Source of the DNA: Candidatus Rifleibacterium amylolyticum
Lineage (GTDB): Bacteria; Muiribacteriota; Ozemobacteria; Ozemobacterales; Ozemobacteraceae
Length of the DNA: 57,326 bases
NCBI GenBank assembly: GCA_009917695.1
Contig: JAACJG010000021.1
Span: 1 to 57,326, forward strand
Direction of reading: 5' to 3'
Under the pieces are notes generated by a model. It had not been told where the DNA came from and made no database searches. It was given only the letters and a program-made list of their open reading frames with translations. Position numbers and translations under genes: made by a program. The number at the start of each line of letters is the position of its first letter. Within the stretch, counting starts at the first letter, position 1. This document shows positions 1-48,343 of the stretch, in pieces.

Positions 1-104
1 CTTCTAAATTCAAGTGCAGATCCTCTTCCGCCGCGAAGAGCCTTTTTCAGAAACTTTCGTTGTGAATCAGAAAGCTTGACCACAAACTGCTTTTTTCGGC
101 CCAT
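1..104 (-). CDS. IS630-family-like transposase, N-terminus (cut by window edge)
   Basis: The first 34 codons of a minus-strand gene are visible, and the rest lies outside the window. The start ATG at 104-102 is preceded by a strong ribosome site (GAAGGAGGG). The peptide opens MGRKKQFVVKLSDSQRKFL and continues with a basic, glycine-rich stretch (KKALRGGRGSA). This matches the usual beginning of IS630-type transposases, a short strand followed by a helix-turn-helix of the form 'R/KKY-V-LS--ER--L--L---G-'. Only the DNA-binding start is seen and no DDE residues are in view, so the family call rests on this N-terminal pattern. Whether the rest of the gene is intact cannot be judged. Confidence 0.5.
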   Translation of the reverse strand, partial: MGRKKQFVVKLSDSQRKFLKKALRGGRGSALEFR

Positions 105-239
105 GATGCCCTCCTTCTGGTGCCCTGATTTAAAAACAGGGTTCAAAGAAGATGATCGCTCAGATAGGAAAAAAGTACAAGCTTTTTCTTGTGCTTCAAC
201 TTTGACAGACCACTAGTCCTTTGTCACATATGACTTCAA

Positions 240-540
240 GAATTCAATACCTGGTATACCTCTTATGCCGGGCTCTCGGCAGGATTAGGCAGCTCTTACG
301 GCTTCAGCCGTTAGAGATGCGGATGCAAGGCCCCAACGCTACAACTCTCACCAGACGAGAGAATTAGTGGCTAGCTATGGTTCTGCGTCAACGCTGCCTG
401 GTTCGAAGTTTCCGCTTTTGGGATGCCTGCCTGCACCCTTGTTAATTCTTCTAAACCTGTTAACTATTCAGTTTGAGTTAACTCTGCAATTCAAATGTGA
501 CAGAGGACTGGCGCAAAATCCAATGATTTTACGAGCTTTT
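240..540 (+). ncRNA. orphan structured stretch resembling an OMEGA (HEARO/omega-RNA) element end
   Basis: This non-coding stretch has consecutive hairpins: ACGGC-TTCA-GCCGT at about 286-300 and CTCTC...GAGAG at about 346-361. Between and after them are the conserved-looking strings GATGCAAGGCCCCAACGCT (about 321-339) and GGCTAGCTATGGTTCTGCG. A further GTTAAC...GTTAAC repeat follows at about 459-482. The GATGCAAGGCCCCAAC core resembles what I recall of guide-RNA scaffolds carried by IscB/TnpB transposons. No iscB or tnpB gene flanks it here, so it would be a remnant or a stand-alone copy. The call is pattern memory only and needs a covariance-model search. The rest of the 105-694 gap holds no gene that I can support. 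Confidence 0.25.
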
Positions 541-607
541 AGGCGATATACAAACATTTACGGGCGTAAATACCGCGCCACATCTTAAAATGCTAATATT
601 TATACTT

Positions 608-2499: not shown

Positions 2500-3867
2500 A
2501 TGAAGCGAGTAACCAGTATCATCACCCTAACCACCCTGTTTCTGTTCGCCATTTTGCTGCCAGTCGCGGCCCAGACCAAAGACTGGACAGTCGCTGTTTT
2601 CCTCAATGCAGACAATAACCTCGACCCCTTTGGAGTAGAAGATCAGCAGGAAATGGCCCGCGTCGGTTCGAACGCCAATCTCAATATTGTAACTCTGATC
2701 GACCGCGAGCGTGGCCCGGCCCAGATCAACTTCATCGAAAAGAATAATATCAAGAAGATCAAAGACATGGGCGAACTCGACATGGGCGATTATCGCGAAC
2801 TCGTTAAATTTGCCCGCTTCGTCAAAGAAAATTATCCGGCAAAACATTACTGCTTCACCATCTGGAACCACGGTTCAGGCTGGAAAAACAAGAAGGTCAA
2901 CAGCATTTTCCGTGGGATTTCTTATGATGACTCTTCCAACAACCACATCACCAACGCTCAGCTCGGTCAGGCAACTGCCGAAATAGCCAATATCCTTGGC
3001 CAGAAGGTTGACATTCTGAACATGGACGCCTGTCTCATGCAGATGGTCGAAGTCGGTCATGCGGTAAAAGACAACGTCAGATTCATAGTCGCCTCTGAAG
3101 AACTCGAACCCGGCAAGGGTGCCCCCTACGATGACATTCTCAAGGGTGTCAGCAAGGGTATGGCTCCGGCAGCATTCGCCAACAACTGGGTAAACGCTTT
3201 CGCCCGTTCATACACCGGCGGCAGCCAGGGTCATGATGAATCAACCCAGTCAGCCGTAGACATGAGCAAATTCGGCGCCATGCTCGACGCTATCAACGGT
3301 CTCGCCAAGGCTGTGATGAGCGGCAAATATTCAGCTGATGTCAAAGCCGCTCTGGCCACCACCCAGAAGTTCGACTCTCCCGAAAACATCGACATGATTC
3401 ACTTCGTTGAACAGCTCAAGGCTCGCCTCGGCACCAACGAATCGATCAAGACCGCCTGTGACAAACTCCTGGCAGCTGGCAAAGCCGCAGTAATCAATTT
3501 CAAAAACACCGGTTACTCTACCAAGAATGCAAAGGGCATAGCAATTTATCTGCCCGCCAGCTTCAGAATTGAAGCCAAATACCGCACTCTCAGCTTTGCC
3601 AAAGACAGCATGTGGGACGAAATGATCGACACCCTGCTCAAGCGTGACATGGCCGACAATATCGTCAGCAACATCAGAGCCGGCAGCCTCGACGAACTGC
3701 GCCACCTGGTAGCAGCTGCGGCCGACAGCCCCGAGAGCGCCGATCTTTATCGCTACATTGTGCGCGAACTCAATTACGAAATGTATACCGAAAACGCTCT
3801 GCCCAAAGAACTGGCTGATGAATTCAAAGTTCTCTTCACTCAGCTCACCGCAGCAGCAAGACGCTAA
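2500..3867 (+). CDS. secreted C11 (clostripain) family cysteine peptidase
   Basis: This 455-residue protein has a signal peptide (about 1-24, ending VAAQ). The peptidase domain opens with the typical WTVAVFLNADNNLD segment. The catalytic His is H124 in IWNHGSGW and the nucleophile Cys is C178 in NMDACLMQM, both as in the C11 family. These enzymes cut after Arg or Lys and are often self-processed. The C-terminal third (about 380-455) is helical and specific to this pair. It is followed by a strong terminator, and a close paralog lies downstream under its own promoter, so the two are separately transcribed duplicates. AGGGAGA precedes the ATG. Confidence 0.93.
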   Translation: MKRVTSIITLTTLFLFAILLPVAAQTKDWTVAVFLNADNNLDPFGVEDQQEMARVGSNANLNIVTLIDRERGPAQINFIEKNNIKKIKDMGELDMGDYRELVKFARFVKENYPAKHYCFTIWNHGSGWKNKKVNSIFRGISYDDSSNNHITNAQLGQATAEIANILGQKVDILNMDACLMQMVEVGHAVKDNVRFIVASEELEPGKGAPYDDILKGVSKGMAPAAFANNWVNAFARSYTGGSQGHDESTQSAVDMSKFGAMLDAINGLAKAVMSGKYSADVKAALATTQKFDSPENIDMIHFVEQLKARLGTNESIKTACDKLLAAGKAAVINFKNTGYSTKNAKGIAIYLPASFRIEAKYRTLSFAKDSMWDEMIDTLLKRDMADNIVSNIRAGSLDELRHLVAAAADSPESADLYRYIVRELNYEMYTENALPKELADEFKVLFTQLTAAARR

Positions 3868-3885
3868 GATCAACAAAGACCAACA

Positions 3886-3928
3886 TTGGCGGGCAACCGG
3901 CAACAAACCGGTTGCCCGCCAAATTTTT
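3886..3928 (+). terminator. rho-independent terminator after the first C11 peptidase
   Basis: A 15-bp perfect stem (TTGGCGGGCAACCGG with CCGGTTGCCCGCCAA, 7-base loop) is followed by ATTTTT. It lies 18 bases after the stop codon. Confidence 0.92.
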
Positions 3929-3985
3929 GCCGAGGCACCAACAGACGTCTGCACATTTTCCCCAAAAAAAATGTTTTAGAATCCG

Positions 3986-4014
3986 TTGACACTGTACTTT
4001 TCGATGATTATAAT
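3986..4014 (+). promoter_or_regulatory. consensus sigma-70 promoter of the second C11 peptidase
   Basis: TTGACA at 3986-3991 and TATAAT at 4009-4014 match consensus in all 12 positions with the ideal 17-base spacer. The leader to the start codon is about 65 bases and includes TATAAG repeats (GTATAAGCGTATAAGAGTATAAGGAG). Confidence 0.9.
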
Positions 4015-4085
4015 GAAGGAACGTAGTATCCGTATCGAGTATTTTTTAGTTGTATAAGCGTATAAGAGTATAAGGAGTATCGATA

Positions 4086-5438
4086 ATGAAACGTGTAATC
4101 AGTGTATTTGCGATTTTCCTCATCACCTGCTGTCTTTGTACCCCGGCCAGTGCGGCTGCTGCCAAAGAATGGACATTCATGGTTTTTTTGAATGCCGACA
4201 ACAACCTTGATTCATTTGGTGTGGGCGACATGCAGGAAATGGCTGCTGGCGGCGGCTCCAACGATTATCTCAACATCGTCTGCCTGATCGACCGCGAACA
4301 CGGCCCGGCCACTCTCAATTACATCACCAAAGACGGCCCCCAGGTCGTTAAAGAAATGGGCGAACTCGACATGGGCGATTATCGCGAATATGTCAGATTC
4401 GTAACCGACGTTGCCAAAGCTTACCCGGCAAAAAATTACTGCTCAATCATCTGGAACCATGGTTCTGGCTGGAAAAACGCCAACGGCGAAATCATCAAGG
4501 GCATTTCTTATGATGATTCTTCGAGCAACCATATCACCACCAATCAGCTAACCGTTGCCATGAAGGAAATCAATGCAGTCCTCGGCAAGAAAATTGAAGT
4601 ATTCAGCTTCGACGCCTGCCTCATGCAGATGATGGAAGTTGCCTATGCTCTCAAAGATGGCTGTGACTACCTCGTAGCCTCTGAAGAAACTGAACCCGGC
4701 GAAGGTTATCCTTACCGCGAAATCATTCAGAACTTCAAAAAAGGCATGACTCCAGAGCAGGTAGCCACCATGATCGTAAAACAGTATGCGGCTTCCTATA
4801 ACGGTGGCAGTGCCGGCAGTTCTTCAACTACCCAGTCTGCAATCAAATGCAGCGAACTCGACAATCTGACCGATGCCATCAACGGTTTCGCCAAAGCCTC
4901 GATGGCCGGCGACTTCGCAGCTGAATTCAAGTCGGCCCTCAACCGCGTTCAGAAGTTCTACTACAGAACCAACATCGATCTTGGCCACTTCGTAACCCTG
5001 ACCAAAGCCAGCATCAATGACGAAGGCTTCCAGACCGCCGCCAAAAAATTCGAAGCAGCCTATGCCAAAGCCATCGTTTATAACGGACTTAGCGGCTACA
5101 ACACCAAAAATGCTACCGGCCTGGCTATTTATTTCCCGACTTCTTCTTACAGCTTCTCAGCTGAATACAAAGATCTTGCCTTCGCCAAGAACTGCATGTG
5201 GGAAGCCATGGTTAAAGATTACTACAAGAAGGCCGCTGTTAAGACTCTGGTTGCCGATGTCAGCCGCGGCGACATGTCGAGCCTGATGGACTACGTTGCT
5301 ACTGCCAACGAAAAGAACCGCGAAGTCAGCGCCCACGTTATCGCCAAGCTGAACTTCAGCGTGTTTGCCGAAGGCAATCTCGATGAATCAACAAAGACCA
5401 ATGTCAGCAACCTGCTGAGCGAACTCAAAACCAGATAA
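4086..5438 (+). CDS. secreted C11 (clostripain) family cysteine peptidase, paralog
   Basis: This 450-residue protein is colinear with the preceding peptidase over its whole length. A signal peptide ends near ASAAA (about residue 25). His125 (IWNHGSGW) and Cys178 (FDACLMQM) form the expected dyad, and the segments MGELDMGDYRE and GISYDDSS are shared with the paralog. It should be an exported Arg/Lys-specific endopeptidase. Its own consensus promoter and terminator make it a separate unit. Differences are concentrated after residue 380, suggesting that the C-terminal helical part has diverged in partner or substrate. Confidence 0.93.
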   Translation: MKRVISVFAIFLITCCLCTPASAAAAKEWTFMVFLNADNNLDSFGVGDMQEMAAGGGSNDYLNIVCLIDREHGPATLNYITKDGPQVVKEMGELDMGDYREYVRFVTDVAKAYPAKNYCSIIWNHGSGWKNANGEIIKGISYDDSSSNHITTNQLTVAMKEINAVLGKKIEVFSFDACLMQMMEVAYALKDGCDYLVASEETEPGEGYPYREIIQNFKKGMTPEQVATMIVKQYAASYNGGSAGSSSTTQSAIKCSELDNLTDAINGFAKASMAGDFAAEFKSALNRVQKFYYRTNIDLGHFVTLTKASINDEGFQTAAKKFEAAYAKAIVYNGLSGYNTKNATGLAIYFPTSSYSFSAEYKDLAFAKNCMWEAMVKDYYKKAAVKTLVADVSRGDMSSLMDYVATANEKNREVSAHVIAKLNFSVFAEGNLDESTKTNVSNLLSELKTR

Positions 5439-5768: not shown

Positions 5769-6599
5769 TTACTTTTTCTGCAGGAAAACGGCGCGGGGTT
5801 CGAGGTGAATTTCGCTGAAAAGATTGCCGAGATCACCAGCGGTTTCAGTCGAGCCGATAAGGAGATAGCCGTGCGGTTGCAGATGCCGGGAAACCCGGTT
5901 AAACAATTCAGTCCGCGGTTCCGATGCGAAATAGATAGCCACGTTGCGGCAGACGATGAGATCGAAAGAGTCAGGCAGCATAAATGGCCGATGTAACGGC
6001 ATCTGTACGAAAGAAAGTGACTCTTTCAAACTGTCTTTAACCTTCCAGTTCCTGGAATTGGTTTCAAAAAAGCGCTCAAGCAGGGCGGGCGGAACTCCCC
6101 GTTCGACTTCGAACCGGTTATAAGAACCCTGTCTGGCAGATTCTATAGCCATCCGTGAAATGTCTGTGCCCATGATCTGGTATTCTTTCGGCGATACCCC
6201 CATTTCCTGGAGAACCATCGCCAGGCTGTAAGCCTCCTGGCCGGTAGAGCAGGCAGCGCTCCAGATTTTCAACCGGCGCTTTTCAGCGCTGCGCCGACAT
6301 TGTTCAAGCAGGCGCGGAAAAACGGTTTTGCGCAAAGCCTCAAATGGCGCCAAATCACGAAAGAACGAGGTTTCCTTTGTCGTTATGTGATCGATGAGTT
6401 CTTCTCTGAGATCGTTTCGTTCCGGCTCGCGCGCCATAAAATAGAGATGGCTGTAATTCGAACACTTGAATTTTTTGAGAAGCCCGTGAAATCTTTCAAT
6501 AATCAGATATTCTTTGTCTTCAGTCAAACTGATGCCGGTCAGTTCTGACAAAAACTGACTCCACAGAGCAAATTCGTTGCTGTCCAGTTTATCTTTCAA
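5769..6599 (-). CDS. cheR: chemoreceptor methyltransferase CheR
   Basis: The protein transfers methyl groups from S-adenosylmethionine to glutamates of chemoreceptors. An N-terminal helical CheR domain (LTEDKEYLIIERFHGLL) is followed by the Rossmann methyltransferase domain. That domain carries TTKETSFFRD, the SAM loop WSAACSTGQEAYSLAM, the acidic GTDIS segment and FDLIVCRNVAIYF, all CheR signatures. No ATG is available. TTG at 6599 lies 4 bases after the cheB stop with AAAAGGG upstream and is preferred over a TTG at 6644 inside cheB. It is the last gene of the operon. Length (276 residues) is normal. Confidence 0.92.
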   Translation of the reverse strand: MKDKLDSNEFALWSQFLSELTGISLTEDKEYLIIERFHGLLKKFKCSNYSHLYFMAREPERNDLREELIDHITTKETSFFRDLAPFEALRKTVFPRLLEQCRRSAEKRRLKIWSAACSTGQEAYSLAMVLQEMGVSPKEYQIMGTDISRMAIESARQGSYNRFEVERGVPPALLERFFETNSRNWKVKDSLKESLSFVQMPLHRPFMLPDSFDLIVCRNVAIYFASEPRTELFNRVSRHLQPHGYLLIGSTETAGDLGNLFSEIHLEPRAVFLQKK

Positions 6600-6603
6600 A
6601 TTT

Positions 6604-7719
6604 TCACACGACCCTTTTGGGCAGACGTTGAATTGCTGAGGCAATTCCGCTCAAAGACAGCACTTCATCGGCCAGCCCGGCTTCAACTACCGCGCGAGGC
6701 ATACCATATACCACGCAGGACTGAGCATCCTGCGCCACGATATAACCGCCAGCAGAGCGAACCAGACGAGCGCCGGCAAGACCGTCGGTGCCCATTCCTG
6801 TCATCATGAACAGCCCGACACGCCCTGAGAAATTGGCTACAACCGATCTTAGAAGGTAATCAACCGATGGTCGGCAGTTATTCTCCGGCGGGTCATCAGT
6901 CAGGCGCAACACAAAACTGCCGGGGTTACTTCCTCTGATCAGCTTCAGATGTTCACCTCCCGGCGCCAGATAGATATGCCCCGGCTCCAGCGGCATCCAG
7001 TCTTTAGCCTCTTCTACCCACAAACCGGAGCGCTCTCTGATACTGGCTGCCAATGCTTCAGAAAAAAACCTGGGAATGTGCTGAACAATTATAACGGGCA
7101 CGGACAAAGGCTCTTTGATCACCGAAAACACTTCGGCAAGAGCCGGCGGGCCACCAGTGGAAATGCCGATGACTATCAGCTCGATGCTTCTGCCAGAAGG
7201 ACTCTTTACGGTCGCGCCAACCGTGATATTATGAGCAGCAGACTTTGCCGCGGAGGCCGAAGAATCAGCAGCACCACCAATATTCATACTGCTGCGAATA
7301 CGCAGGCTTTCGATAAGAGCCTGAACAGCCAGTTTAAAGTCTGATTCCAGTCGCTGTCTGGTTTCTTCTATCGTTTCAGCCTCAGGCTTGAGGACAAACT
7401 CAAAGGCGCCGGCGCTGAGGGCTTTCATAGTCAACAGACTCATATTGGGAGAAGCTGCGCTGACAACGATAACCCGGCAGGCGAGTTTAAGTTCGCGCAA
7501 CTGTCTGAGAACTTCGAGACCGCTCATATCCTGCAGTTTCATGTCGAGAATCATCAGATCGGGCCCAAGAGCCTGAGCTTTCTGAATGGCGATCTTACCG
7601 TTAGGAGCCTGGCCAACAAGTTCAACTCCTTCGATTTCGAGCAACAGATCACCGATTATCTTGCGAAAAACCAGCGAACTATCGACAACCATGGTGCGCA
7701 AAACCTTATGAGCTTTCAT
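6604..7719 (-). CDS. cheB: chemotaxis protein-glutamate methylesterase CheB
   Basis: This 371-residue, two-domain protein starts with a receiver domain (about 5-125; VVDSS with D13, phospho-acceptor D59 in LMILDMKLQDMSG, and KPE near 113). A linker of Ser/Ala residues leads to the CheB catalytic domain (about 180-365). The domain shows the nucleophile motif GISTGGPPAL, the His motif IVQHIPRFF and the Asp motif TGMGTDGLAGA, so the Ser-His-Asp triad is intact. It removes methyl groups from, or deamidates, the receptor encoded two genes upstream. Its ATG overlaps the stop of the cheW-like gene by one base (TAATG), so translation is probably coupled. Confidence 0.95.
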   Translation of the reverse strand: MKAHKVLRTMVVDSSLVFRKIIGDLLLEIEGVELVGQAPNGKIAIQKAQALGPDLMILDMKLQDMSGLEVLRQLRELKLACRVIVVSAASPNMSLLTMKALSAGAFEFVLKPEAETIEETRQRLESDFKLAVQALIESLRIRSSMNIGGAADSSASAAKSAAHNITVGATVKSPSGRSIELIVIGISTGGPPALAEVFSVIKEPLSVPVIIVQHIPRFFSEALAASIRERSGLWVEEAKDWMPLEPGHIYLAPGGEHLKLIRGSNPGSFVLRLTDDPPENNCRPSVDYLLRSVVANFSGRVGLFMMTGMGTDGLAGARLVRSAGGYIVAQDAQSCVVYGMPRAVVEAGLADEVLSLSGIASAIQRLPKRVV

Positions 7720-8204
7720 TACAGGTCTCCAGCCACATCACGCGAACCCAGCAATTCATCGAGTTTCAGCAAGCCGGTCATTTTGCCATCAAGAAAGAAA
7801 AAACCGGTTACTACCCTCGAAAAAGCTTTTGGCAGATTTTCGGGACTGGCAGTCATCTGGTCTGGCGAAAACGGAAAAATGCCGATCAGGTTGTCAACCA
7901 GCATTCCCACAAGCTCTGTACCTGATTGAACAACAAGAATACGAGTATCGGCATCGAGTATCTGAGCGTTCAGCCCAAGTTTAACCGCGGGATCGATAAC
8001 TGCGATAACCCGGCCACGCAGGTTGAACACGCCTCTGACATAATCGGGAGCATGATGAACCGGTCTTATTTCTGGTGGGGCCAGAACTTCCTGAATCGGG
8101 CCGGCGGGAATGCCGAGCATGTTTCCGCCTATACTGCAGATGACGACGAGCTGGCCCTCGTCCTCGAGAAGGCTTCCTGACGCCAGTTTCATGAAGGAAG
8201 TCAT
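7719..8204 (-). CDS. cheW: CheW-like coupling protein
   Basis: This 161-residue, single-domain protein has the CheW pattern. The first subdomain contains FGIPAGPIQEVL-like spacing (LGIPAGPIQEVL). The conserved VRGVFNLRGRVIAVIDPAVKLGL segment begins near residue 57, followed by DTRILVVQ and LVGMLVDNLIGI. It should link the receptor to CheA. The start overlaps the receptor stop by one base (TGATG). The N-terminal ten residues are extra compared with minimal CheW. Confidence 0.88.
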   Translation of the reverse strand: MTSFMKLASGSLLEDEGQLVVICSIGGNMLGIPAGPIQEVLAPPEIRPVHHAPDYVRGVFNLRGRVIAVIDPAVKLGLNAQILDADTRILVVQSGTELVGMLVDNLIGIFPFSPDQMTASPENLPKAFSRVVTGFFFLDGKMTGLLKLDELLGSRDVAGDL

Positions 8205-11008
8205 CAGATTTTGAACTTTCCTACCATCGAGCGCAGCTGTTCAGCCAGTTTTGACAGTTCGCGGGCACTGGCGAAGACCTGCTGGCTCGAATTGGTAACC
8301 TCGTTAGAAGCAGAATTGACACGGGCAACGTCTTTGGCCACTTCCTGCGTACCAAGGGCTATTTCGGCCATGCGCACGTTCACGCCCCGGATTCCACTGG
8401 AAGCATCTGAAATACTGCTCGAAATACTGCGAGTCACGCTTGCCTGCTGTTCGATACTGCTGGCAATGGCTGCAATGATGTCGCTGACTTCTTTGATAAT
8501 CTTGCCGATATTCTCGATATCGCCAATGGCGTTTACCGTTACATCCTGAATTCCCGCAATTTTTTTGCGAATGTCAATAGTAGCGGTAGCGGTCTGTTGA
8601 GCCAGTTCTTTAACTTCGTTGGCGACAACCGCAAAGCCTTTGCCGGCTGTGCCGGCACGGGCAGCCTCGATGGTGGCGTTGAGCGCCAGCAGATTAGTCT
8701 GCGATGAAATGCTGGTAATGGTTTCGGTCACCTGACCGATTTCCTGTGCTGACTTTTCCATGGCTTTGATTATCTCAGAGACCCCACTCGCCTGATTACT
8801 GGCGTTCTGCGCGATGCGCCGCGCTTTTTCAGAGTTGGCGGCAATATCGCTGATAGTAACGCTCATCTCTTCGGTAGCAGTGGCGACGGTAGTAAGATTC
8901 ATGGTTGTCTGCTCCATGCTCGATGCCACCGAGACCGTGTTCGAGCTCATCTGCTCGACTGCTGACGCTACCAGCGCTGAGCGATCAGAAGAATCGCGCG
9001 AACTTGAGGCAAGCTGCTCAGAAATTGTCGACAGCTCGGTCGATGAAGATGCCAGAGTATGAACACCGTCGTTCAGCTGCCTGAACATCTGTATAAGCTG
9101 ATTCACCATCATTGCAATTGCCTGCATCTGCTGATCCTGGGCCGAACGCTCGCGCACTTCGACGAGCAGATCGCCCGCAGCTATTCTCTGGGCAACCGCA
9201 GTGACTCCACACAGCGACTCGATCAGGTTGTTGATGCTGTCTTTGAGCACATTGAACTGACCGTGAAAGTCTTCGCTGACTTTTGCTGGAATCTCGCCAC
9301 GACTTAGTCTTTCGATATTGCTCGAAACCATTACTACCGGGCGTGATATCGCTTCGAGAATGTTGTTCATCTCCTGCACCAGCCGGGCAAATTCGCCACG
9401 GTTTCGGCTGATATCGCAGCGCACCGTCAGATTGCCTTCGAGCGCGGCCCGGGTGAGGGTGCGACTATCTTTGATCAGGCTCTCGATCGAATGTTTGACC
9501 TCATCCAGATTCTTGAATATTTTCTGAAAGAGCTCATAAACGGGGCGGGCAGCCTGATCCGGTTCGGCTATATCCCAGTTCCAGTCGATATTGCCTTCGG
9601 CCAGAGTCTGCAGGCAACCGGCAAGTTTGCCGAGTTCCTGGTTCTGATACTGGAACACCCGGTTCGAATCGTGAGTAAGCGCTTCGATTTCGCCGCGCGC
9701 CTGCTCAGCTTTTTTCAGCAAATAATGATGACAGTTCTCAACCCGGTTCAGGTTGTTATAAATAGCTGTAGCCATCATTTCGCATTTGCCATAGCCGCAT
9801 GAATTGCAGTTAAACAAGTCTTTTTCGTCGTGTTTTTCCATCTGACGATAGATATTCTGCAGCTCTGACTCGCTCGGAGTGCGAATAATGTTGGTCTTAG
9901 TGCGATTTTCATAGTTGCGCGCATAGAGTCCCGGCTTCCAGAAACGGTTCACCAGCTTTTCAATGCCTTTGCGGGTTCGATAGCTGGACATCGGACCACG
10001 ACGACGGTGTTTCTGCTGCATTCTCTGGCTGCGTTCTTCAACGAGACGTTCGATCTGGTCAGGCGAGCTGTTTTTGGCATCAGTGCCAGTACCGCCATTG
10101 CAGCCCAGTTCGCAGTTAAGACAATCAACCAGCAGTGGTGCTTTCTTTTCGAGCCGCAGACGATCAAGGTTGCCAAGATAATCGTAGATCAGATGCGGGC
10201 CCTCAATTTTACGGGTAATTTTGTTGACATCAGGGTTCCAGCGTTCGGCCGTTCTAAGCAGCCCACCCGGCGTTGAAAAGAGAACAGCACGCTCAGCTGG
10301 CGGATTGTCATAATCGACTTCGGGGAAAGTGGCGAGGCGAATATTCTCATTCTCAAGCCATTCGCGCAAGTTTGCCATGGTAATGTTGTAATCGCCAAGA
10401 CCGGTCTGTGCGAACTCACGCTTCTTGGCGATACAGGGCGAAAGCACTGCTATCTTATGACCGGCAAACTGCGGCCAGTATTCACGAATAAGTTTTATCG
10501 TATGCAGCATCGGGCTGTCAGCCGGAGCCAGCGAAGGGATCAGTTCGGGATGATAAATTTCGGCATAATTGACAAGCGCCGGACAAGGCTGGGCGATGAC
10601 CAGATCCGGCTTGTTCTTTTCGATGTGGTCGAGATACGACTTTATAGTAAGCTCAGCACCAAAACTGACGTCGAATATAGCTGCAACACCGCGTGCCTTA
10701 AGCCAGCCATTAAGCCGCAGATATTCATTCGGAAAAGATACAGCGACTGCTGGAGCGACAATCGCGATCATCGGTTCGCGCCGGGACAGAGCTTCGACAA
10801 AACTGACAGTATCATCAACCGGCCGACGCGCATCATGAGAACAGGCTTTCAGGCACTGCCCACAGCCGATACACATCTCACTGTTGATCTCCACTGTATC
10901 GCCGGAAGCGTCGTTACAGAACTTTACCGGGCAAGCAGCAATGCAGGCATGGCAATTGACACATTTATCCTTGATGACTTCAACAACTTTCGGCAATGGG
11001 CGCAACAT
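8204..11008 (-). CDS. soluble chemoreceptor: ferredoxin + [FeFe]-hydrogenase H-domain + FeS + HAMP + MCP
   Basis: This 934-residue fusion begins with two [4Fe-4S] motifs (C16[12 protein letters not shown]46[10 protein letters not shown]). A large-subunit [FeFe]-hydrogenase domain follows (about 80-310). Its H-cluster motifs are altered: L1 is AQPCPALV (C142 kept, the preceding proton-relay Cys replaced by Pro), L2 is SPCIAKKRE (C192) and L3 is NCELGCNGG (C299, C303). A CxxCGxGxC cluster domain lies at 401-426. HAMP-like helices follow (about 490-630) and then a methyl-accepting signalling hairpin whose tip contains [19 protein letters not shown]. There is no membrane segment. Substituted L1 is typical of sensory HydS-type proteins, so it probably senses H2 or redox state rather than turning over H2. 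The gene is coupled to cheA and cheW. Confidence 0.93.
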
Positions 11009-14000
11009 CAGATTTTCTCCCGGTAGTTAGATTCTCTTATCGGCTCGAGGCCGGTTGGCAGTGCTGAATTCAGCCATTCAGCCAGATTCTGGTTTTCAAG
11101 TTTCTGAAACACTTCGACTATTCCCTCTGTGGTCAGATCGTTATCGCAGTCTTTAAAGCTGTTACGTAGGGCAACCACCCTGGTGCCATTGAGCTTTTTC
11201 TCTGCCCGCAACCGACGGATGTTGGCAAAATTATCGCGCTGCAAAACTCTGGCGTCGGCCATCAGAGCTTTGTAACCAACCTCAGCTGCCAGACAATCAT
11301 CTATTTCTCGCCACGATCGCACCAGCTTCACGGCATAGCCATGATTTTCCAACTGTAAACGCAGCTGGTTACTGAAATAATCAGAGGGCTCCAGTACCAG
11401 TAATTCAGGTGCTCTTTCATTTGTATAAGCTGACTCGTGACTGAAATCGAGCAGCTCAGGCCGTTGTCTGGCCAGAATTTCCCATATATCGACAAACAAT
11501 ACCGATTTACTGCCCCATGCCATCGAACCACCAATGCCGGGCTGACGTAAAACCGTATTATCGACAGCCGGGTTGAGTTCTATCACCTGTATGGGCAGAG
11601 CGGCAATCAGACCGATTTCGCGATCGCGCACGCGAATTACAATGACACCGCATTCCTGATCGTTACGCAGCGGTTCAATATCAGTGATATCGCTGACCAT
11701 GAAAACCGGCAGAATCTTATCGCCATGCTGAATTGCCTTCCAGCCGCCACATGCAACAATTTCCCGCAACTGCACTTTTTCGAGACGGTCAACCAGAAAC
11801 AGAGGCAAGACCAGAGTTTGCGGGCCACCATAACGGAACGCCAGAAAAGGCACAGTATCTGCATCCAGACGACTGTCGACAGTTGTTTCGACCATGGCAG
11901 TACTTATGGTATGCTGCTGCCCCATTATATTGGCCCGGGTTGCCAGTCCAAATACATCAATAATAAGAGCGATGCGGCCGTCGCCCATAATAGTGGCGCC
12001 AGAATATTCAGCCAGCCCCTTTAGATCGCTGCCAAGCTGTTTTACGACAATTTCTTCGGTAAACAGAGGCTTATCGACAACAATACCGTATGAAAAGCTG
12101 CCGGTAGTTACGATAACCACGTTAATATCACTTGCAGCGTGGTAACGCCGACCGTTTTCGCGTTGAGGCAGATCGCTGACATCCGGCTTGCTTATCACTC
12201 CATTCGACTGGTAATGTGGCGACCGACGGTCGGCCAGTCGCCGTCTTCGATCGCGCTTTTCCTTACCACTCTCACTGTCTGAAAAATTACGTTCGCCACC
12301 CAGAAAACTGTTGAGCGAAATCAATGGCAACAACTTGCCTCGAAGAACCAGCACCTCCTGATCACCGATTACTTCGATTTTACGTTTTACCATCTCAGCC
12401 GGTATCATCAGCATTTCAACCACGTTAAGCTGCGGGATCGCGAAGATTTCGCCACTCGTAGAAAGGATGAGCGAGGGAATAATGGCCAGAGTAAGCGGCA
12501 GTTTTATGCGAAAAGAAGAACCTCGCCCAAGCTCAGATATGATTTCGACCTTGCCGCCAAGACTGTCGATATTGGCCTTGACGACATCCATACCAACGCC
12601 ACGACCGGAAAGTTCTGATACTTTTTCAGCTGTCGAAAGTCCGGGCATAAATACAAGATTCTGTTTTTCTTTACTAGAAAGGCTGCGAGCCTTCTCGAGC
12701 GCAAGCAGGCCACGTTCGACCGCCTTGGCGCAAACCTTGTCACCATCGATACCACGACCGTCATCGCTGACTTCGATAATTACGCGACTTGCCTCATAAA
12801 ATGCCTGAATCTTGATGCGCGCCGGGTTGCTCTTTCCAATAGCCTGCCTTTCCTGTGGCGCCTCGACACCATGATCGACAGCATTGCGAACCATGTGAGT
12901 AAGGGGATCTCCGAGACCTTCAATCAAAGCCTTGTCGAGTTCGACTTCGCGACCTTCCATGGTCAGGCTAATTTCCTTACCAAGCTGGCGCGAGAGATCA
13001 CGAATCATGCGCGGAAATTTGGAAAAGACGCGATCGAGTGGTTGCAGGCGCGTCATCATAATGGTTTCCTGCAGTTCGGTGGTAACCTGACCCATGCGCT
13101 GGCCGCTGATGCGTATCGCCCGCATATCGTTGCGATTCAAGCCTTCGCGCAGTTGATTGCGGCTCAAAACCAGTTCTCCGGCCAGATTCATGAGGTCTTC
13201 AAGCAGACTGACCTTAACCCGCAGAGTCGGCTCTGACTTTTCTTCGACCTGAACCGGTAAAATACCGTTTGATGCAGGCAAAGCAAGCGACTGTGCCATT
13301 GCGGCAGAGTCAATATCCTCGTTTTGATTGTCAGAAACAGATTTCTCTGCCTGGCTTTCCAGCTTATAAAAAACTCTGGCCGGCACTTCCAGCATGTCAG
13401 CCAGCTCTTCCGCTTCCATCTCTGAGTAATAGACGAACTCAAACGGCAACCGGTAAGCATTAGCGCTTGCCGATTCTTCAAAAGCTGCAAAATCAAACTC
13501 GCAAAGCACAAGTGTGCCAAACGAATCGAGATATTTAAAAAAATCGCAGAGAGATTTGTCCTGCTCATCGATGTCTTTGACCAGATCGATTCGGCCGAAA
13601 AAAACTTTCCAGCCGCTGCTTTGCGCATCAGCGATCTCCTGCCATGGCAGAGAAAATAGAGTCGGCTGTGCCCGACCGGCAACAGCTGAAGATTCGGCCT
13701 TTGGCGTTTTAACCGTTTCGAGGATCTCATCGAGCTGATTACAGACAGCCGAAATGTCGATCTCGTTGCTGTTTGCCGAATGATCAATGAGATAACGCAG
13801 TCGGTCAAAACTGCTCAGCAGCAGATCGATCAGATCGGCTGAAATGCTGATCTGACAAGATCTTATCGAGTCAAGCAACCACTCGATTCGGTGTGACAAT
13901 TCATGAATTCGAGTGAAGCCGAACATGCCACTCGATCCTTTGATCGAATGTGCAGCACGAAACACCTGGTTGATAATGCCGGCTTTTTCGTCAGTTGACG

Positions 14001-14124
14001 CCGTTTCGAGCTGGAGAAGAAGAGGTTCGATACCTTCGAGGTGTTCGATAGATTCTGCCAGATAGCACTGCAGCAGTTCACTGCCATCGCCCTTGATATA
14101 AGGATTATCGTTCACGTTGCTCAA
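11008..14124 (-). CDS. cheA: CheA-type histidine kinase with two CheW domains and a C-terminal receiver-like domain
   Basis: This 1038-residue kinase carries an HPt domain (phospho-His H59 in [15 protein letters not shown]). A P2-like region lies at about 165-260 and a dimerisation helix pair at about 300-365. The ATPase has an N-box MVRNAVDHG at 411, DDGRGID at 454 and GRGVGMD at 507. The first CheW domain (about 550-720) is interrupted by a very basic, charged insert ([15 protein letters not shown]). A second CheW-like domain lies at about 745-880. The tail (about 905-1030) looks like a receiver with an aligned Asp (LMADARVL) but a changed acidic pocket (LVLEPSD). The start is TTG, overlapping the cheY stop by 4 bases; GTG at 14115 is an alternative. 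Confidence 0.93.
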
Positions 14125-14480
14125 TCGAGGTATTTTTTTACGGTCGTCAAAACGCGTTCTGGATGTAACGGCTTAACTATAAACGTTTTGGCACCAGCTT
14201 CAACAGCGGCCTTCACTTTGTTACTCTGCCCAAGCGCAGAACACATAATGATCTTGGCCTTGGCATCGAGCTTGAGTATTTCTTTTACTGCTGTTATGCC
14301 ATCCATGTCGGGCATGGTGATGTCCATGGTCACGAGATCGGGCTTGAAGGTCTGGTATTTCTGAACCGCCTCTTCACCTGTTTCTGCTTCAAGAACAGTA
14401 TAGTGGTAGCTTTCGAAAAGCTGCTTCAAAGTCATACGCACAACCGAAGCATCATCGACCACCAGAATTTTTTTACCCAT
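14121..14480 (-). CDS. cheY: single-domain response regulator CheY
   Basis: This 119-residue receiver domain has the full active site: D9/D10 in LVVDDASVVR, phospho-acceptor D53 in VTMDITMPDMDG, the switch Ser/Thr in IMCSALGQ and Lys103 in FIVKPLHPER. It has no output domain, so it should be the diffusible phosphorylated product of the adjacent CheA. It is translationally coupled to cheA (TTGA overlap). Confidence 0.92.
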   Translation of the reverse strand: MGKKILVVDDASVVRMTLKQLFESYHYTVLEAETGEEAVQKYQTFKPDLVTMDITMPDMDGITAVKEILKLDAKAKIIMCSALGQSNKVKAAVEAGAKTFIVKPLHPERVLTTVKKYLD

Positions 14481-14561: not shown

Positions 14562-15032
14562 CTATTTGATCTGTGCTCGACTGTCGAATTTAACTACCAG
14601 CTTGAGTTCGCCCCAATCGAATTCGAATTTGCCGACAAAACAGGCGCTGGCCGTAGAATATTCTTTGCCACGAGTGACTGCAGGCACAGTAATTTCGCAA
14701 TCGAGGCCCATTTCCAAAAGACGCTTGCTGGCTTCACCTGCGATCATATTGGAAAGTTCGCCGATGGCACTTTCGACCAGGCGGTCGTAAGCGGTTATCG
14801 ACTTGCCTCCCAGAGTTACCGATGCGGCCTTGAAAGCCACCGCTTCATCCATCAGGATAAAGAACTGGCCCTTGAAGCCACCCGCAACACCAAGACCGAC
14901 GCTGACAGGAGCAGGCAAGCTGCACCCATCTGGGAAGTAGGTCAAGTCCGTCTTGAGCATACTGACATTGTTGACCTGTCCAAAAACGCTTGAAGTCGCG
15001 CGAACGAACTGATTAACTATCTGAGAGTCCAT
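14562..15032 (-). CDS. cheX: CheX-like CheY-P phosphatase
   Basis: This 156-residue protein fits the CheC/CheX/FliY family. The signature ESAIGELSNMIAGEA (about residues 87-101) supplies the catalytic Glu and Asn that act on phospho-CheY. An N-terminal region VNQFVRATSSVFGQV and the central sheet segment GGFKGQFFILM also fit CheX. It is the first gene of the chemosensory operon and would end the signal by removing phosphate from the next gene's product. A clear sigma-70 promoter was not found in the 155 bases upstream. Confidence 0.85.
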   Translation of the reverse strand: MDSQIVNQFVRATSSVFGQVNNVSMLKTDLTYFPDGCSLPAPVSVGLGVAGGFKGQFFILMDEAVAFKAASVTLGGKSITAYDRLVESAIGELSNMIAGEASKRLLEMGLDCEITVPAVTRGKEYSTASACFVGKFEFDWGELKLVVKFDSRAQIK

Positions 15033-27001: not shown

Positions 27002-30000
27002 ATGGACCAGGCGGCGTTTAAAAAGAGTTTTCCTGCTTTTCCGACCAGCGAAGAAGCGATCGAAAAGCTATGCCGCATGCTCATCAACGAAAACATCGTC
27101 AATCATGCAATCTGGGAAGAACTGACAACCGCGAATCCAGACCCGGCCGACTTTATTGCGGCGCTGGCTTCTCTGGATGCAATAACCGAAGAGATTCTCG
27201 CGACCAAAGAGGCCGAGATCCTCAACGTACCTTATATAAAGATTGACGAGATCGACATTCCGCAAGATGCTTTCAAACTCATCGATATCAAGTTCATCAA
27301 AGAGCGCCGCATCATTCCCGTTAAAATAAACGGCGCCGAGCTTATTGTCGGCACTGTCGAGCCCGGCAACAGCACAATACTTGTCGGCACCAATGCCACT
27401 CTGGCACTTCGTCCCGCCAAAGTTCTCGGTGAAGCTCTCGACAACAAAATAGCTCAAAAAAGCGGCGAAAAGCAGACAAAAACGAACAAGGGGCCACGCA
27501 AAAGGCTTGGCGACATTCTCGTCGAATCAAAATACTGCACAAATGAGCAGCTCAACGACGCAATTCAGGGCGCAAAGAATGACAAGATCCGCCTCGGCGC
27601 CTACCTGGTAAAACACGGAATCCTTACCAACAAACAGCTTTCAATTGCCCTTTCCAAGCAATTCAACATTCCTTTTGTCGATCTCGACGAAAGCCTTGTC
27701 GATCCGGTGCTCGCGACTCTGCTGCCGAAGAAACTCTGTCACGAACAGATCATGTGCCCGGTCAAGCGCGAGAACAACAAACTGGTTCTGGCAATGACCG
27801 ACCCCACTGACATTATCACCATAGACCATGTTGAAATGATGACAGGGATGCGTGTTTCTCCAGTTGTCAGCTCTGAGCTTTCCATTCTCTCAGCCCTGGG
27901 AAACCTCTACGGCGAGAACATCGACGCTCTGGCCGACAACATAGGCAGCGAAAGTGGTGGCGGCGACGACGATGGATTAGACATGGGCGAGAATGACGCT
28001 CCGATCATCAAGCTGGTCAACCTGATTCTGACCCAGGCAGTCAACATGAACGTATCAGATATTCATGTCGAAATTTACGAACATGAACTGCGCATCAGAT
28101 TCAGACTCGACGGCATAATGAAACTTTTCATGACACCAGCTCGAGCCGCACACGCAGGTGTGGTCAGCCGCATCAAGGTCATGGCCAACCTCGACATCGC
28201 AGAGACCCGCCGCCCGCAAGATGGGCGCATCAAACTCAACATGCAGAACCGCAAGATTGACTTGCGCGTTTCCTGTATTCCCTGCATCTGGGGTGAAAAA
28301 ATCGTCATGCGTATCTGCGACCAGGGCAATCTCAGAGTTGACCTTGGCGACCTCGGCTTTGAGCCTTTCGTTCTCGAAAAATTCATGGAAGGCGTAAAAT
28401 GCTCGAACGGTATCGTTCTGGTTACCGGACCTACCGGCTCAGGCAAGACGACAACCCTCTATTCATCCCTATTCCTATTGAACAATCCATCGATCAATAT
28501 CATGACCGCAGAAGACCCGGTTGAATACAACCTCATGGGCATCAACCAGGTGCAATGCCACCCTGACATTGGCCTCGACTTTTCGGCAGCCCTGCGCTCG
28601 TTCCTACGCCAGGACCCTGATGTAATAATGCTTGGTGAAATTCGTGACTTCGAGACTGCTTCGATCGCTATCAAGGCGGCAATGACCGGCCACCTCGTAA
28701 TTTCGACTCTGCATACCAATGATGCCCCGGCAACTGTTGCGCGTTTGCTCAACATGGGCATAGAACCATTCAGTCTCTCGACCTCTCTGCGCATCGTTCA
28801 GGCACAGCGACTGGTCAAGAAGGTCTGTAAGACCTGCGCCCAGGAATACAAGGCCGACAAAGACCTGCTGCTGTCTCTTGGCATAGATGCCCGCCTGCTC
28901 AAAAAGCTGCACCTCGACGAAAAGTATAAGATAGACAACCTGATGTTCCGCAAAGGAACCGGATGCCCTGACTGTGACAATGTCGGCCTCAAAGGGCGCC
29001 AGGGTATTTATGAAGTTCTCACCATGACACAGAAATTCCGCGAACTGATCGAAAACAAGGCCAACACTGAAGAAATGCGGCGCCAGGCGCTTGCTGACGG
29101 CATGCTGTCACTGCGCGAATCGGCTCTTTACAAACTGATCACAGGCGTCACTTCGGTTCAGGAAGTTTTTAATACAACTGTTGATGCCGGTGGCGACGAT
29201 AAGACCGAAGAAGAAAAGAAGCCAAAAATGGCCGAAGAATCTTCGACCAAGATTTTCATGCCAATCACTGCCCCCCCCATGGCAACAAGCGGCGTTGCTG
29301 TTGCTGATGGCGGCTCGATCAGCAATCTGTCACGCGAGCTGCATGAATTCACCAGTATGCTGGCGAAGGTTTCCGGCGTCAGTGAATCTCCGGCAGCAGC
29401 TACAGCCGCAATCAACAAAGAAATTCTCAAACACAACATAGTGGCGCCGCTTGAACAGATTCGTGCGCAGGCAGGAAAATCTGATCAGGCCGATAAAGTT
29501 CTGCCGCTGATTCAGGCGCAGGGCCAGAAAATGGACTATAACGTGCGAAATCTGATTTCGCACCTCGCCGACATCAAGCCAAAACTGGCGAAAATGCAGC
29601 TCAACCAGCTCGTTGAAAAAGAAATTTTTGCCGGACTCAAAAATCATGTTGTCACTGCCCGGCTTATTTCGGGCATCAAAGACATAGGTAAAAATCTGAA
29701 GGTTTCAAAAAGCCTGCCCACAGACCTGCCGCCGGTAGAGATTGACCCTGAGTCATTTGCCACAATTGCCAGCAACCTGTTTATCAATGCCCTGATCGGC
29801 CTTGGCAGCAAAGGCGGCGAAATCAAGGTTGTTACCCGGCTCAAGCCCAAAACTACCGATCGTGTCGAATTCATAATTTTCGACAGCGGCAAAGGCATTC
29901 CGGTCGAGCAACAGGCCAGCCTTTTCACGCCTTTCTCGTCTTCCGACAAGTCATCGCTTGGTCTTGGACTTGCCGTGAGCAAAAAGCTGGTATCTCTGTG

Positions 30001-30076
30001 TCATGGCGATATCAGCATAAAAAGTACACCTGACACCAGCACCCTGGTTACCGTCGAACTGCCGGCGGCAACCTGA
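27002..30076 (+). CDS. PilB/GspE-like secretion ATPase fused to a histidine-kinase-like module
   Basis: This 1024-residue fusion has two MshEN-type N-terminal domains (about 60-150; 165-300, with RLGDILVESKYCTNEQL). The GspE/PilB ATPase follows at about 335-715. It has the Asp box DIHVEIYEHELRIRFRLDG, Walker A GPTGSGKTT (about 479), Walker B VIMLGEIRD (about 538), the His box STLHTND and a zinc site CKTC/CPDC. After a linker (about 715-790) comes an H-box-like LKHNIVAPLEQI (H811) and a HATPase domain (N-box SNLFINAL about 921, FDSGKGIP about 960, SLGLGLAVSKKL about 982). The ATPase powers pilus or type II secretion assembly. The C-terminal module suggests regulation by phosphorylation or nucleotide binding. 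Confidence 0.92.
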   Translation: MDQAAFKKSFPAFPTSEEAIEKLCRMLINENIVNHAIWEELTTANPDPADFIAALASLDAITEEILATKEAEILNVPYIKIDEIDIPQDAFKLIDIKFIKERRIIPVKINGAELIVGTVEPGNSTILVGTNATLALRPAKVLGEALDNKIAQKSGEKQTKTNKGPRKRLGDILVESKYCTNEQLNDAIQGAKNDKIRLGAYLVKHGILTNKQLSIALSKQFNIPFVDLDESLVDPVLATLLPKKLCHEQIMCPVKRENNKLVLAMTDPTDIITIDHVEMMTGMRVSPVVSSELSILSALGNLYGENIDALADNIGSESGGGDDDGLDMGENDAPIIKLVNLILTQAVNMNVSDIHVEIYEHELRIRFRLDGIMKLFMTPARAAHAGVVSRIKVMANLDIAETRRPQDGRIKLNMQNRKIDLRVSCIPCIWGEKIVMRICDQGNLRVDLGDLGFEPFVLEKFMEGVKCSNGIVLVTGPTGSGKTTTLYSSLFLLNNPSINIMTAEDPVEYNLMGINQVQCHPDIGLDFSAALRSFLRQDPDVIMLGEIRDFETASIAIKAAMTGHLVISTLHTNDAPATVARLLNMGIEPFSLSTSLRIVQAQRLVKKVCKTCAQEYKADKDLLLSLGIDARLLKKLHLDEKYKIDNLMFRKGTGCPDCDNVGLKGRQGIYEVLTMTQKFRELIENKANTEEMRRQALADGMLSLRESALYKLITGVTSVQEVFNTTVDAGGDDKTEEEKKPKMAEESSTKIFMPITAPPMATSGVAVADGGSISNLSRELHEFTSMLAKVSGVSESPAAATAAINKEILKHNIVAPLEQIRAQAGKSDQADKVLPLIQAQGQKMDYNVRNLISHLADIKPKLAKMQLNQLVEKEIFAGLKNHVVTARLISGIKDIGKNLKVSKSLPTDLPPVEIDPESFATIASNLFINALIGLGSKGGEIKVVTRLKPKTTDRVEFIIFDSGKGIPVEQQASLFTPFSSSDKSSLGLGLAVSKKLVSLCHGDISIKSTPDTSTLVTVELPAAT

Positions 30077-32561: not shown

Positions 32562-34358
32562 TCACTCCTGATCGGAAATCGTATAAAGCTCGATTTCGGC
32601 GGTTTTACCGCGAATGCTTCGCTTACCAATAAATCGCCACGACACTGGCTGGCGAACCAGCGCCGTCAGCTTGCCGCTGACTATTATAGAGGTTTCGAAC
32701 TCCTTGTTCAATGATTCCATGCGCGAACAGGTGTTAACGGTGTCACCGATAACAGTGAATTCGGTCTTGCGCGTTGAACCTATGTTGCCAAAAACAGAAT
32801 CACCAACATGCAGCGCTATTCCAACCTTCAGCACATCACCAGAACTTATCGCCCTGAATTCAGGCGAATCAGAATAGGCTCTAATTTCAAGAGCAGCTTT
32901 CAGGGCTTTATCAGCAAAATCCGGGTCTTCGACCGGAGCATTGAAAAATGCCAGCAGTCCATCACCGAGAAATTTGTCGACAACGCCGCCGTGTCGCATG
33001 ATGATTTCGGTAACCATACTGAAGTATGCGTTAAGAAATTTAACCACCTCATGCGCATCACGTTTTTCACTGAACGTGGTAAATCCCCTGATGTCAGCAA
33101 TCATGATGCAGAGCTGACGGCGCTTGCCCTGCATGAATTCACGATCGTCAGAAGCCAGAACCTGGTGCAGAACGCTGTCACTGACATAGCGGCTGAATAT
33201 CTGGCGAACACGGCGGCGATCGACATATACTGAGCGGTAAACCAGCAATCCGGTGACTGCGATAAATGCTGTCAGCAGCAACAAGGGCTTTACCACCGGC
33301 AGGTAGAATCCATCAAATCCACTGACAGATACGACAAGCCAGGCCAGAGCCACTATAATCCCGGCAATGACTGACTGCACGCAATAGCGCAGCGAGCACA
33401 ACAGCAATAACAGAATAATCAGACTTATAGCCAGCAGTTCGCGCGCAAGTTCAACTCTTTTAAGAAAACGGTGATTCAGCAGATTGTCGATAATGTTGGC
33501 ATGCAGCTCGACCCCTGGCATAAAACCGTAGGGAGTCGATTTAAAATCGGTAATACCGGTAAATCCGACAAGAACTATTTTACCGGCCAGCTGTTCGCCC
33601 AGATTCTTTCCGGCACGATGGTTTTCGAGCAGCTGCTTCAACTGAAGCACGCCAAAGCTGTTACGTGGCCCCCGAAAATTGATCTGCTGCAACGGCTGCT
33701 CAGGCAGGATTGCAGACAAAGAAGCCAGGCGGCCGGCCGCCACAGCTGAAACCGCCAGAACCCGTTCATCAGCGTCATCACTGTATAGCTCGATACTGCG
33801 GGCAACACCATCGCGTGAAGTAGCAATATTGTAATAACCGGTATTTTCGCGACGCGCTATGTGTAAAAGAGATGGATCTGAAAACACCGGCTGATTGTGT
33901 TCCCAGGCAAATCCAAGAACCAGCTGAGTTCCAGACTTTATCATCTCGATCAGAGCAGCTCGAAATGGTTTGTCAAAACCTATTGCACGTAACAGACGCG
34001 GCGAAACATCTTCGTTGAGCTCGTCAGCAACCTTGCGAATGTGTTCGCGCAAAACGCTCTCAGAAGTTGGCGAAAAAATCAGATCGAAGAGCAGAACCGA
34101 AGCCGAGGCTTGTCCGACGGCCTGAGCGAGTTCAGCATATATCGGACCCCAGGCGAACATTGGCCGGGCTCCCCAGCTGAGCGTGTCCTGATCTATTCCA
34201 ATGATAACAATGCGCGAATCTGTCGTCACCGCGCCGCGATGCCGGAAAAGCAGGTCAAGCCAACGATTTTCGCCATCTTCGACCAGCGCCGGGCTGCCCA
34301 GATAAAGCAGAAACCCCAGCAACAGGCACACAACCCAGTTCAACCAGCCAAAACGCAT
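32562..34358 (-). CDS. CHASE2-domain adenylate/guanylate cyclase
   Basis: This 598-residue protein has an N-terminal membrane helix and an extracytoplasmic CHASE2 domain (about 30-290, beginning DSRIVIIGIDQDTLSWG). Three membrane helices follow (about 295-370), then a class III nucleotide cyclase domain (about 405-595). The two metal Asp residues are in IADIRGFTTFS and FLGDGLLAFF. VFGNIGSTRKTEFTVIGDTVN supplies the other catalytic strands and the transition-state Asn/Arg region. It should make cAMP (or less likely cGMP) in response to an outside signal. The start has a GGGGGG ribosome site. Confidence 0.94.
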   Translation of the reverse strand: MRFGWLNWVVCLLLGFLLYLGSPALVEDGENRWLDLLFRHRGAVTTDSRIVIIGIDQDTLSWGARPMFAWGPIYAELAQAVGQASASVLLFDLIFSPTSESVLREHIRKVADELNEDVSPRLLRAIGFDKPFRAALIEMIKSGTQLVLGFAWEHNQPVFSDPSLLHIARRENTGYYNIATSRDGVARSIELYSDDADERVLAVSAVAAGRLASLSAILPEQPLQQINFRGPRNSFGVLQLKQLLENHRAGKNLGEQLAGKIVLVGFTGITDFKSTPYGFMPGVELHANIIDNLLNHRFLKRVELARELLAISLIILLLLLCSLRYCVQSVIAGIIVALAWLVVSVSGFDGFYLPVVKPLLLLTAFIAVTGLLVYRSVYVDRRRVRQIFSRYVSDSVLHQVLASDDREFMQGKRRQLCIMIADIRGFTTFSEKRDAHEVVKFLNAYFSMVTEIIMRHGGVVDKFLGDGLLAFFNAPVEDPDFADKALKAALEIRAYSDSPEFRAISSGDVLKVGIALHVGDSVFGNIGSTRKTEFTVIGDTVNTCSRMESLNKEFETSIIVSGKLTALVRQPVSWRFIGKRSIRGKTAEIELYTISDQE

Positions 34359-48108: not shown

Positions 48109-48170
48109 ATACAGCCCCCAATAATTAAATAATAAATAATGAAAAATAATGGTGACGATGTAATGAGCAA

Positions 48171-48330: not shown

Positions 48331-48343
48331 AAGCCCTGTCAAA

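Follow-up and report, generated by a model that had tools for sequence, protein, structure and literature searches.

Organization of the receptor locus

The stretch of DNA analyzed here (the window) comprises 57,326 nucleotides of contig JAACJG010000021.1 (positions 1 to 57,326, forward strand) from assembly GCA_009917695.1 of Candidatus Rifleibacterium amylolyticum. It contains the gene of a soluble, [FeFe]-hydrogenase-like chemoreceptor, in which a hydrogenase-type domain (H-domain) is followed by the signaling hairpin of a methyl-accepting chemotaxis protein (MCP). The open reading frame (ORF) lies on the minus strand, the plus-strand reading of the same interval being interrupted by stops. 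It is part of an operon with the order cheX-cheY-cheA-receptor-cheW-cheB-cheR, all genes being encoded on the same strand (Table 1).

Table 1. Genes of the che operon and domains of the receptor. Residue numbers refer to the receptor protein (res., residues; aa, amino acids).
Feature	Position	Strand	Basis and details
cheX	14562..15032	-	Pfam; CheX/CheC-type phosphatase family, 156 aa
cheY	14121..14480	-	Pfam; one receiver domain, 119 aa
cheA	11008..14124	-	Pfam; Hpt, H-kinase_dim, HATPase_c and three CheW-type stretches, 1038 aa (TTG start as listed)
[FeFe]-hydrogenase-like soluble chemoreceptor	8204..11008	-	ORF listing and Pfam; 934 aa
Receptor, 2x[4Fe-4S] domain	res. 15-61		Pfam Fer4/Fer4_7
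Receptor, H-domain	res. 79-306		Pfam Fe_hyd_lg_C, E 4.7e-31, 108.7 bits (cut-off 22.1)
Receptor, C-terminal Fe-S module	Cys401/404/409/426		CX2CX4CX16C spacing
Receptor, HAMP region	res. 537-598		Pfam HAMP_2, E 1.8e-18; HAMP-like motifs by eye at about 466-640
Receptor, MCP signaling hairpin	res. 726-871, tip at 772		Pfam MCPsignal, E 9.9e-32, 110.6 bits (cut-off 34.6)
cheW	7719..8204	-	Pfam; 161 aa
cheB	6604..7719	-	Pfam; receiver and methylesterase, 371 aa
cheR	5769..6644	-	Pfam; methyltransferase, 291 aa, listed TTG start

A preliminary description of this DNA, made from the sequence alone and naming no strand, had credited the receptor with its own CheA and a set of adaptation enzymes, and the products of all six che genes indeed match the corresponding Pfam families. 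The genes are tightly packed. Overlaps of a single nucleotide join the cheA stop to the receptor start (TGATG), the receptor stop to the cheW start, and cheW to cheB, while the listed starts give overlaps of 4 bases for CheY/CheA and 41 bases for CheB/CheR; co-translation of the operon genes is likely. The receptor is the sole MCP gene of the operon. Horizontal arrival was considered on the basis of composition and rejected, the G+C content of the operon (50.5%) giving no signal against the rest of the window (50.1%).

Domain architecture and predicted structure of the receptor

Pfam matches and a residue check agree with the 934-residue architecture that had been claimed (two [4Fe-4S] motifs, H-domain, further Fe-S domain, HAMP, MCP tip), with the PF04060 match to the further Fe-S domain falling below its cut-off (see below). 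The receptor retains Cys142, Cys192, Cys299 and Cys303 as H-cluster ligands, and Pro141 occupies the position of the proton-relay cysteine of L1, as described before. A membrane segment was not found, the highest 19-residue hydropathy being 1.28, also in accordance with the earlier claim; the other MCP-type ORFs of the genome peak at 2.2-2.85 in four out of five cases and at 1.48 in the fifth (228 residues). No PAS domain was matched by Pfam at E<=0.01. A search with a methylation-type motif gave one strict match (residue 660) and two relaxed matches (682 and 850).

The AlphaFold2 model of residues 1-440 (55 alignment rows) has a mean pLDDT of 95.3 and a pTM of 0.92, and contains no cofactor. 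Its best VIA-align match is CbA5H (8zqd; Z 35.5, 345 residues, 2.7 Å, 25% identity), and every entry among the 50 listed rows (Foldseek, VIA-align) is an [FeFe]-hydrogenase or a complex that includes one, these matches being hardly a test of the fold of residues 373-440. Loss of the H-domain, which would have spoken against the preliminary description, was thus not observed: the predicted fold is intact. In the full-length model (pLDDT 75.5) long helices follow past residue 427.

Conservation of the predicted H-cluster pocket

Relatives of the receptor were collected by using four orthologues as queries on genome contigs, and the best 80 of 129 confirmed relatives were retained. They were retrieved by patterns in the ferredoxin part, so that the residues of the H-domain were not directly selected, while the choice of the best 80 favors similarity. 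Together with the window protein they form an alignment of 81 rows, in which a residue is present in 80 rows at each pocket position. In all of these 80 rows Cys142, Cys192, Cys299, Cys303, Lys195, Pro141, Ser190 and Leu297 are invariant. By motif, we take Pro141, Ser190, Lys195 and Leu297 to occupy the positions of C299, M353, K358 and M497 in CpI. The receptor thus has Ser-Pro-Cys where the catalytic group A enzymes have their MPC motif, and the proton-relay Cys299 of CpI is absent. An additional cysteine (Cys296) directly before the L3 cysteine pair is found in 75 of the 80 rows with a residue, and is absent in two aligned sensory paralogues from the same genome.

Equally invariant are the cysteines of the ferredoxin part (eight) and of the C-terminal module (four), in 80 of 80 rows with a residue. 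Being conserved as strictly as the H-cluster ligands, they agree with a receptor for the redox or energy state that does not have H2 as its ligand. Whether or not a [2Fe] site is present, its Fe-S clusters would come into redox equilibrium with ferredoxin or with carriers linked to NAD(P)H and report the electron pressure inside the cell, as energy-taxis receptors do. The genome also encodes three HydA-type enzymes with Fe_hyd_SSU, which would make the redox state of ferredoxin a meaningful signal. Against this stand the invariant residues facing [2Fe] (Pro141, Ser190, Lys195 and Leu297), which plain Fe-S clusters should presumably not need, and we regard such a receptor as rather unlikely compared with one in which the H-cluster senses H2 or a linked redox signal.

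Two sensory hydrogenases, as presented in the available parts of the sources, allow a comparison. TamHydS from Thermoanaerobacter mathranii (group D, M2e) shares with the receptor two N-terminal [4Fe-4S] clusters, the H-domain and the CX2CX4CX16C motif (PMC8163306; PMC13104023). It likewise has no PAS domain, carries the same replacements of Met353 by Ser and Met497 by Leu, and interconverts H+ and H2 without Cys299; it is described without a fused output domain, whereas the receptor continues into HAMP and MCP parts (PMC8163306). TmHydS from Thermotoga maritima (group C, M2f) resembles the receptor in its N-terminal part, its C-terminal Fe-S module and the replacement of the proton-relay cysteine, but this position is occupied by Ala instead of Pro, the positions corresponding to 353 and 497 of CpI by Gly and Ser instead of Ser and Leu, and a PAS domain is found where the receptor has HAMP and MCP domains (PMC10055695). 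Among the sensory sequences of HydDB, Pro is found at position 299 in about 10% and Ser at position 353 in about 32%; the latter residue is therefore not specific to group D (PMC10055695).

Phylogenetic position

In a carefully built tree of 50 rows, whose group labels were assigned by motifs and architecture and not by named group reference sequences, the family of the receptor forms one clade (100/100). It is separated from the group A rows (100/99), the B-like rows (100/98) and the M2e-like rows (100/100), and stands beside the sensory rows bearing a kinase or PAS domain with modest support (88/74). Joining the family to the four M2e-like rows costs 3.99 log-likelihood units (p-AU 0.086). 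In a quick tree of 80 rows the branch deciding between groups C and D is unsupported. Among the 25 NCBIfam models listed out of 54, none exceeds its cut-off, the best being B1 (125.1 bits against 450) and A (110.6 bits against 405.95). With regard to sensory groups C/D, the family lies outside the catalytic A and B-like rows; the C-like side has a support of 88/74, and the D-like alternative keeps a p-AU of 0.086 and is not rejected.

These data also bear on the possibility that the protein is a catalytic hydrogenase whose MCP part merely localizes the enzyme to a receptor array. The predicted fold does match catalytic enzymes. Nevertheless, all rows that have a residue at the proton-relay position carry Pro instead of Cys, the family lies outside group A in the tree, and the other six genes of the operon include no redox partner or hydrogenase subunit by Pfam. 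An enzymatic role of this kind is most improbable, and a placement among catalytic hydrogenases with an intact proton path, named beforehand as a result that would overturn the sensory assignment, was not obtained.

Within the family, the earliest branches are four PAS-bearing members with kinase or SpoIIE outputs, and a further kinase member falls within the MCP members. The MCP output may thus be derived within the family, and the output domains appear to have been exchanged.

Distribution, gene order and output domains

Orthologues were surveyed in 95 genomes, the own genome included. Matches with at least 57% identity were found in five: the own genome, two out of five of the same genus, one out of 18 others of the same family, and one genome of another phylum. 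The receptors are 82% and 83-90% identical (the latter in two pieces) within the genus, 77% within the family and 57% in the other phylum, where the contig stops inside the receptor gene, within the MCP-type tip. In three other genomes, two from the same genus and one from the same family, cheA, receptor, cheW, cheB and cheR follow each other as they do here, which makes chance or an assembly artefact unlikely; cheX and cheY were found in two of these three. When the flanks were compared with 22.5 kb of the window, two of the three close genomes had no matching flanking gene and the third had one flank in common.

The best 80 relatives have a much wider distribution. By record title, 55 are from Spirochaetota; the others, three of them from Candidatus Riflebacteria, belong to no fewer than 13 other named phyla, apart from two with no phylum name. 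Two Desulfoluna genomes among them encode a shorter form of the fusion between H-domain and MCP. The MCP hairpin is present in 71 of the 80 (phmmer); by Pfam, MCPsignal is matched in 37 and 34 rows, respectively, of two sets of 40 that both include the window protein, corresponding to 70 of 79 distinct proteins. The neighborhood survey that had been suggested for this fusion thus recovered both the conserved gene order and the fusion itself. Nine relatives are without the hairpin. The first of them is truncated at the end of its contig, another has 550 residues and no output domain was found in it, and seven are 879-1364 aa long. Five of these seven were scanned and all contain a PAS domain, together with HisKA, HATPase_c and a receiver in four and with SpoIIE in one. 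This PAS and SpoIIE phosphatase member of the clade is located at positions 9986-12625 of locus L110.

HAMP_2 was matched in three of the 40 rows of the first set, specifically the window protein and two other complete Riflebacteria proteins, and in at most one row of the second (the window protein itself), in which it is not among the 25 families listed. The HAMP-bearing Riflebacteria proteins are at least 934 aa long, against a median of 695 aa for the MCP-bearing relatives, and a HAMP insert looks special to Riflebacteria in our sample.

A cheA gene lies within the locus DNA in 10 of 80 loci, or in six of the 33 loci in which the receptor gene is flanked by 5 kb or more in both directions. 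All seven CheA-bearing loci outside Riflebacteria also hold another MCP gene. Within the DNA span of the loci examined, the predicted single-receptor che operon is therefore a Riflebacteria feature in this sample. Ten neighboring MCPs were scanned, of which five have Cache domains and one has a four-helix-bundle sensor. In three loci, the gene directly upstream of the hydrogenase receptor encodes an MCP that contains several hydrophobic stretches and lacks a known sensor domain (L056, 8141-9991; L066, 7347-9989; L068, 4310-6106).

Chemotaxis and hydrogenase genes elsewhere in the genome

Whole-genome matches comprise two CheA, two CheB, four CheR and six MCP genes. The second CheA (contig C1, at about 140.5 kb) includes a CheW domain and adjoins a CheW-type gene, with flhA about 5 kb away; the presence of FlhA makes flagella likely in this host. 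Compared with the four other full-length MCPs (MAFFT), the hairpin of the receptor is about 14 residues shorter in its first helix and 7 shorter in its second, and its tip differs from the sequence NLLALNAAIEAARAG carried by those four. Both the different hairpin length and the different tip point to a separate signaling array for the receptor.

Seven H-domain proteins are encoded in the genome, including the three HydA-type enzymes. Further members are a sensory fusion of an H-domain with a histidine kinase and a PAS-bearing H-domain protein adjoining a SpoIIE-type phosphatase, which by their architecture resemble HydDB groups C1 and C3. If the window receptor is counted in, all three sensory styles of HydDB appear to be represented in a single genome. 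Hydrogenase clusters with the PAS-bearing protein and its SpoIIE neighbor and with the kinase fusion are located at L032 (6492-13687) and L033 (7565-17235). For the maturase HydF, one match above the cut-off was found.

This richness in genes of H2 metabolism speaks against a sensor that would use its H-cluster to detect an inhibitory gas (carbon monoxide, CO, or O2). CO does bind to H-clusters and O2 reacts with them, and TamHydS is reported to react rapidly with O2, but the same protein is described as highly CO-tolerant (PMC8163306). We consider sensing of an inhibitory gas very unlikely.

Relation to known systems

The preliminary description had ranked the receptor as a candidate for an undescribed sensory system. 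This claim was rejected, because HydDB (2016) already defines an [FeFe] group C2, ‘Chemotactic (putative)’, for which H2 sensing via MCPs was proposed (PMC5037454). The concept is repeated in PMC9431212, and group C2 is used as a category in PMC11406978 and PMC10811737, as far as the available parts of these papers go. The architecture of the receptor, an H-domain protein linked to an MCP, is what the C2 label predicts, but the available text of the C2 description mentions neither a che operon devoted to a single receptor nor a HAMP insert (PMC5037454). By description, the receptor would be a well-formed example of the proposed C2 class, to which these two traits are apparently new. Since MCP, histidine kinase and SpoIIE outputs all occur in its clade, labels based on output may not match the clade. 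Among the papers listed in literature searches, judged by title and beginning of the abstract, none describes a fusion of H-domain and MCP that is encoded in a che operon of its own, which is weak evidence of absence. Methylation-type or chemotaxis-type sensors are reportedly treated in a 2012 study by Ballor, Paulsen and Leadbetter on the hydrogen sensors of termite-gut treponemes.

The haem-PAS receptor Aer2 is soluble and contains several HAMP units. The HAMP and MCP parts of our receptor align with the Aer2-type model NF041847 of NCBIfam (E 5.8e-30, best stretch 592-911), but the score of 104.2 bits, where the cut-off is 1200, places it outside this family, and its sensor is an H-domain. 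The regulatory [NiFe]-hydrogenase HoxBC/HoxJ likewise connects a hydrogenase-type H2 sensor to a histidine kinase, but with a [NiFe] site, separate proteins and a transcriptional output (PMC6978683, available in part).

Proposed function

In our view the receptor probably senses H2, or a linked redox signal, through an H-cluster and controls its own CheA. The sensory-type H-domain, the direct MCP output and the operon with its own CheA agree with what the preliminary description had proposed, while H2 as the ligand is a point that we infer. Hydrogenase maturases would build the H-cluster in the receptor, and H2, or an electron supply balanced with H2, would set its redox state. Slow turnover without the Cys299 relay could keep the reduced state long enough for signaling. 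The change would then travel from the C-terminal Fe-S module through the HAMP region to the hairpin and tune CheA, with CheR and CheB adapting the receptor and CheX dephosphorylating CheY. The output of this pathway is probably a bias of motility, and less likely a non-flagellar response. A more specific version is a private, adapting H2 pathway of Riflebacteria, in which a second CheA array, distinct from the CheA close to the flagellar gene, would receive its input from the soluble H-cluster receptor alone, with HAMP repeats converting the state of the cluster into that of the hairpin and with H2 taxis or H2-set behavior as the result; this version is plausible and we hold it tentatively, as somewhat short of probable.

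Several points weigh against the proposed function. The gene is patchy, being present in four of the 39 genomes of the phylum sample, the own genome included. The full-length model is weak at about residues 440-680, the HAMP and linker part through which the signal would pass, and the number of HAMP units was read by eye. The PF04060 match at residues 400-426 is likewise weak (E 0.0072, 16.5 bits, cut-off 23); in the family, PF04060 reaches E<=0.001 in 36 of the 40 rows of one set and in 34 of the 40 rows of the other. In the literature, as far as available, ligand, cofactor or kinase data for members of the clade were not found. The redox state of the C-terminal cluster of TamHydS is reported to be unchanged by H2, which argues against a simple electron-relay signal (PMC13104023, in part). 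For group C1 proteins of Hydrogenedentota, in which H-cluster motifs were hardly findable, the authors doubted H2 sensing (PMC11406978, in part); a sensory label alone thus proves nothing, though the receptor does have these motifs.

From the parts of the literature available, sensory [FeFe]-hydrogenases have been studied mainly as isolated enzymes, and the authors of the TamHydS study ask how signal transduction is achieved (PMC8163306). For an MCP fusion that has a CheA and a CheW to itself and shares its operon with no rival receptor, kinase activity against H2 would serve as a direct readout. The shorter fusion of Desulfoluna could make H2 taxis testable in living cells, provided that the strains are genetically tractable. 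If the proposal is correct, anaerobes could steer by a gas that is central to their economy.

Other genes in the window

Two tandem clostripain-family (C11) peptidases adjoin the che operon (2500-5438, plus strand). An unusual-looking type II/IV secretion ATPase of the T2SSE type is encoded at 27002-30076 (plus strand), with two MshEN stretches and a C-terminal HATPase_c domain at residues 915-1023 (whole-protein E 2.9e-18). The minus strand encodes a protein combining CHASE2 with an adenylate/guanylate cyclase catalytic domain (32562-34358) and a protein in which a von Willebrand factor A domain comes after an N-methylation motif like that of type IV pilins (46459-48342).

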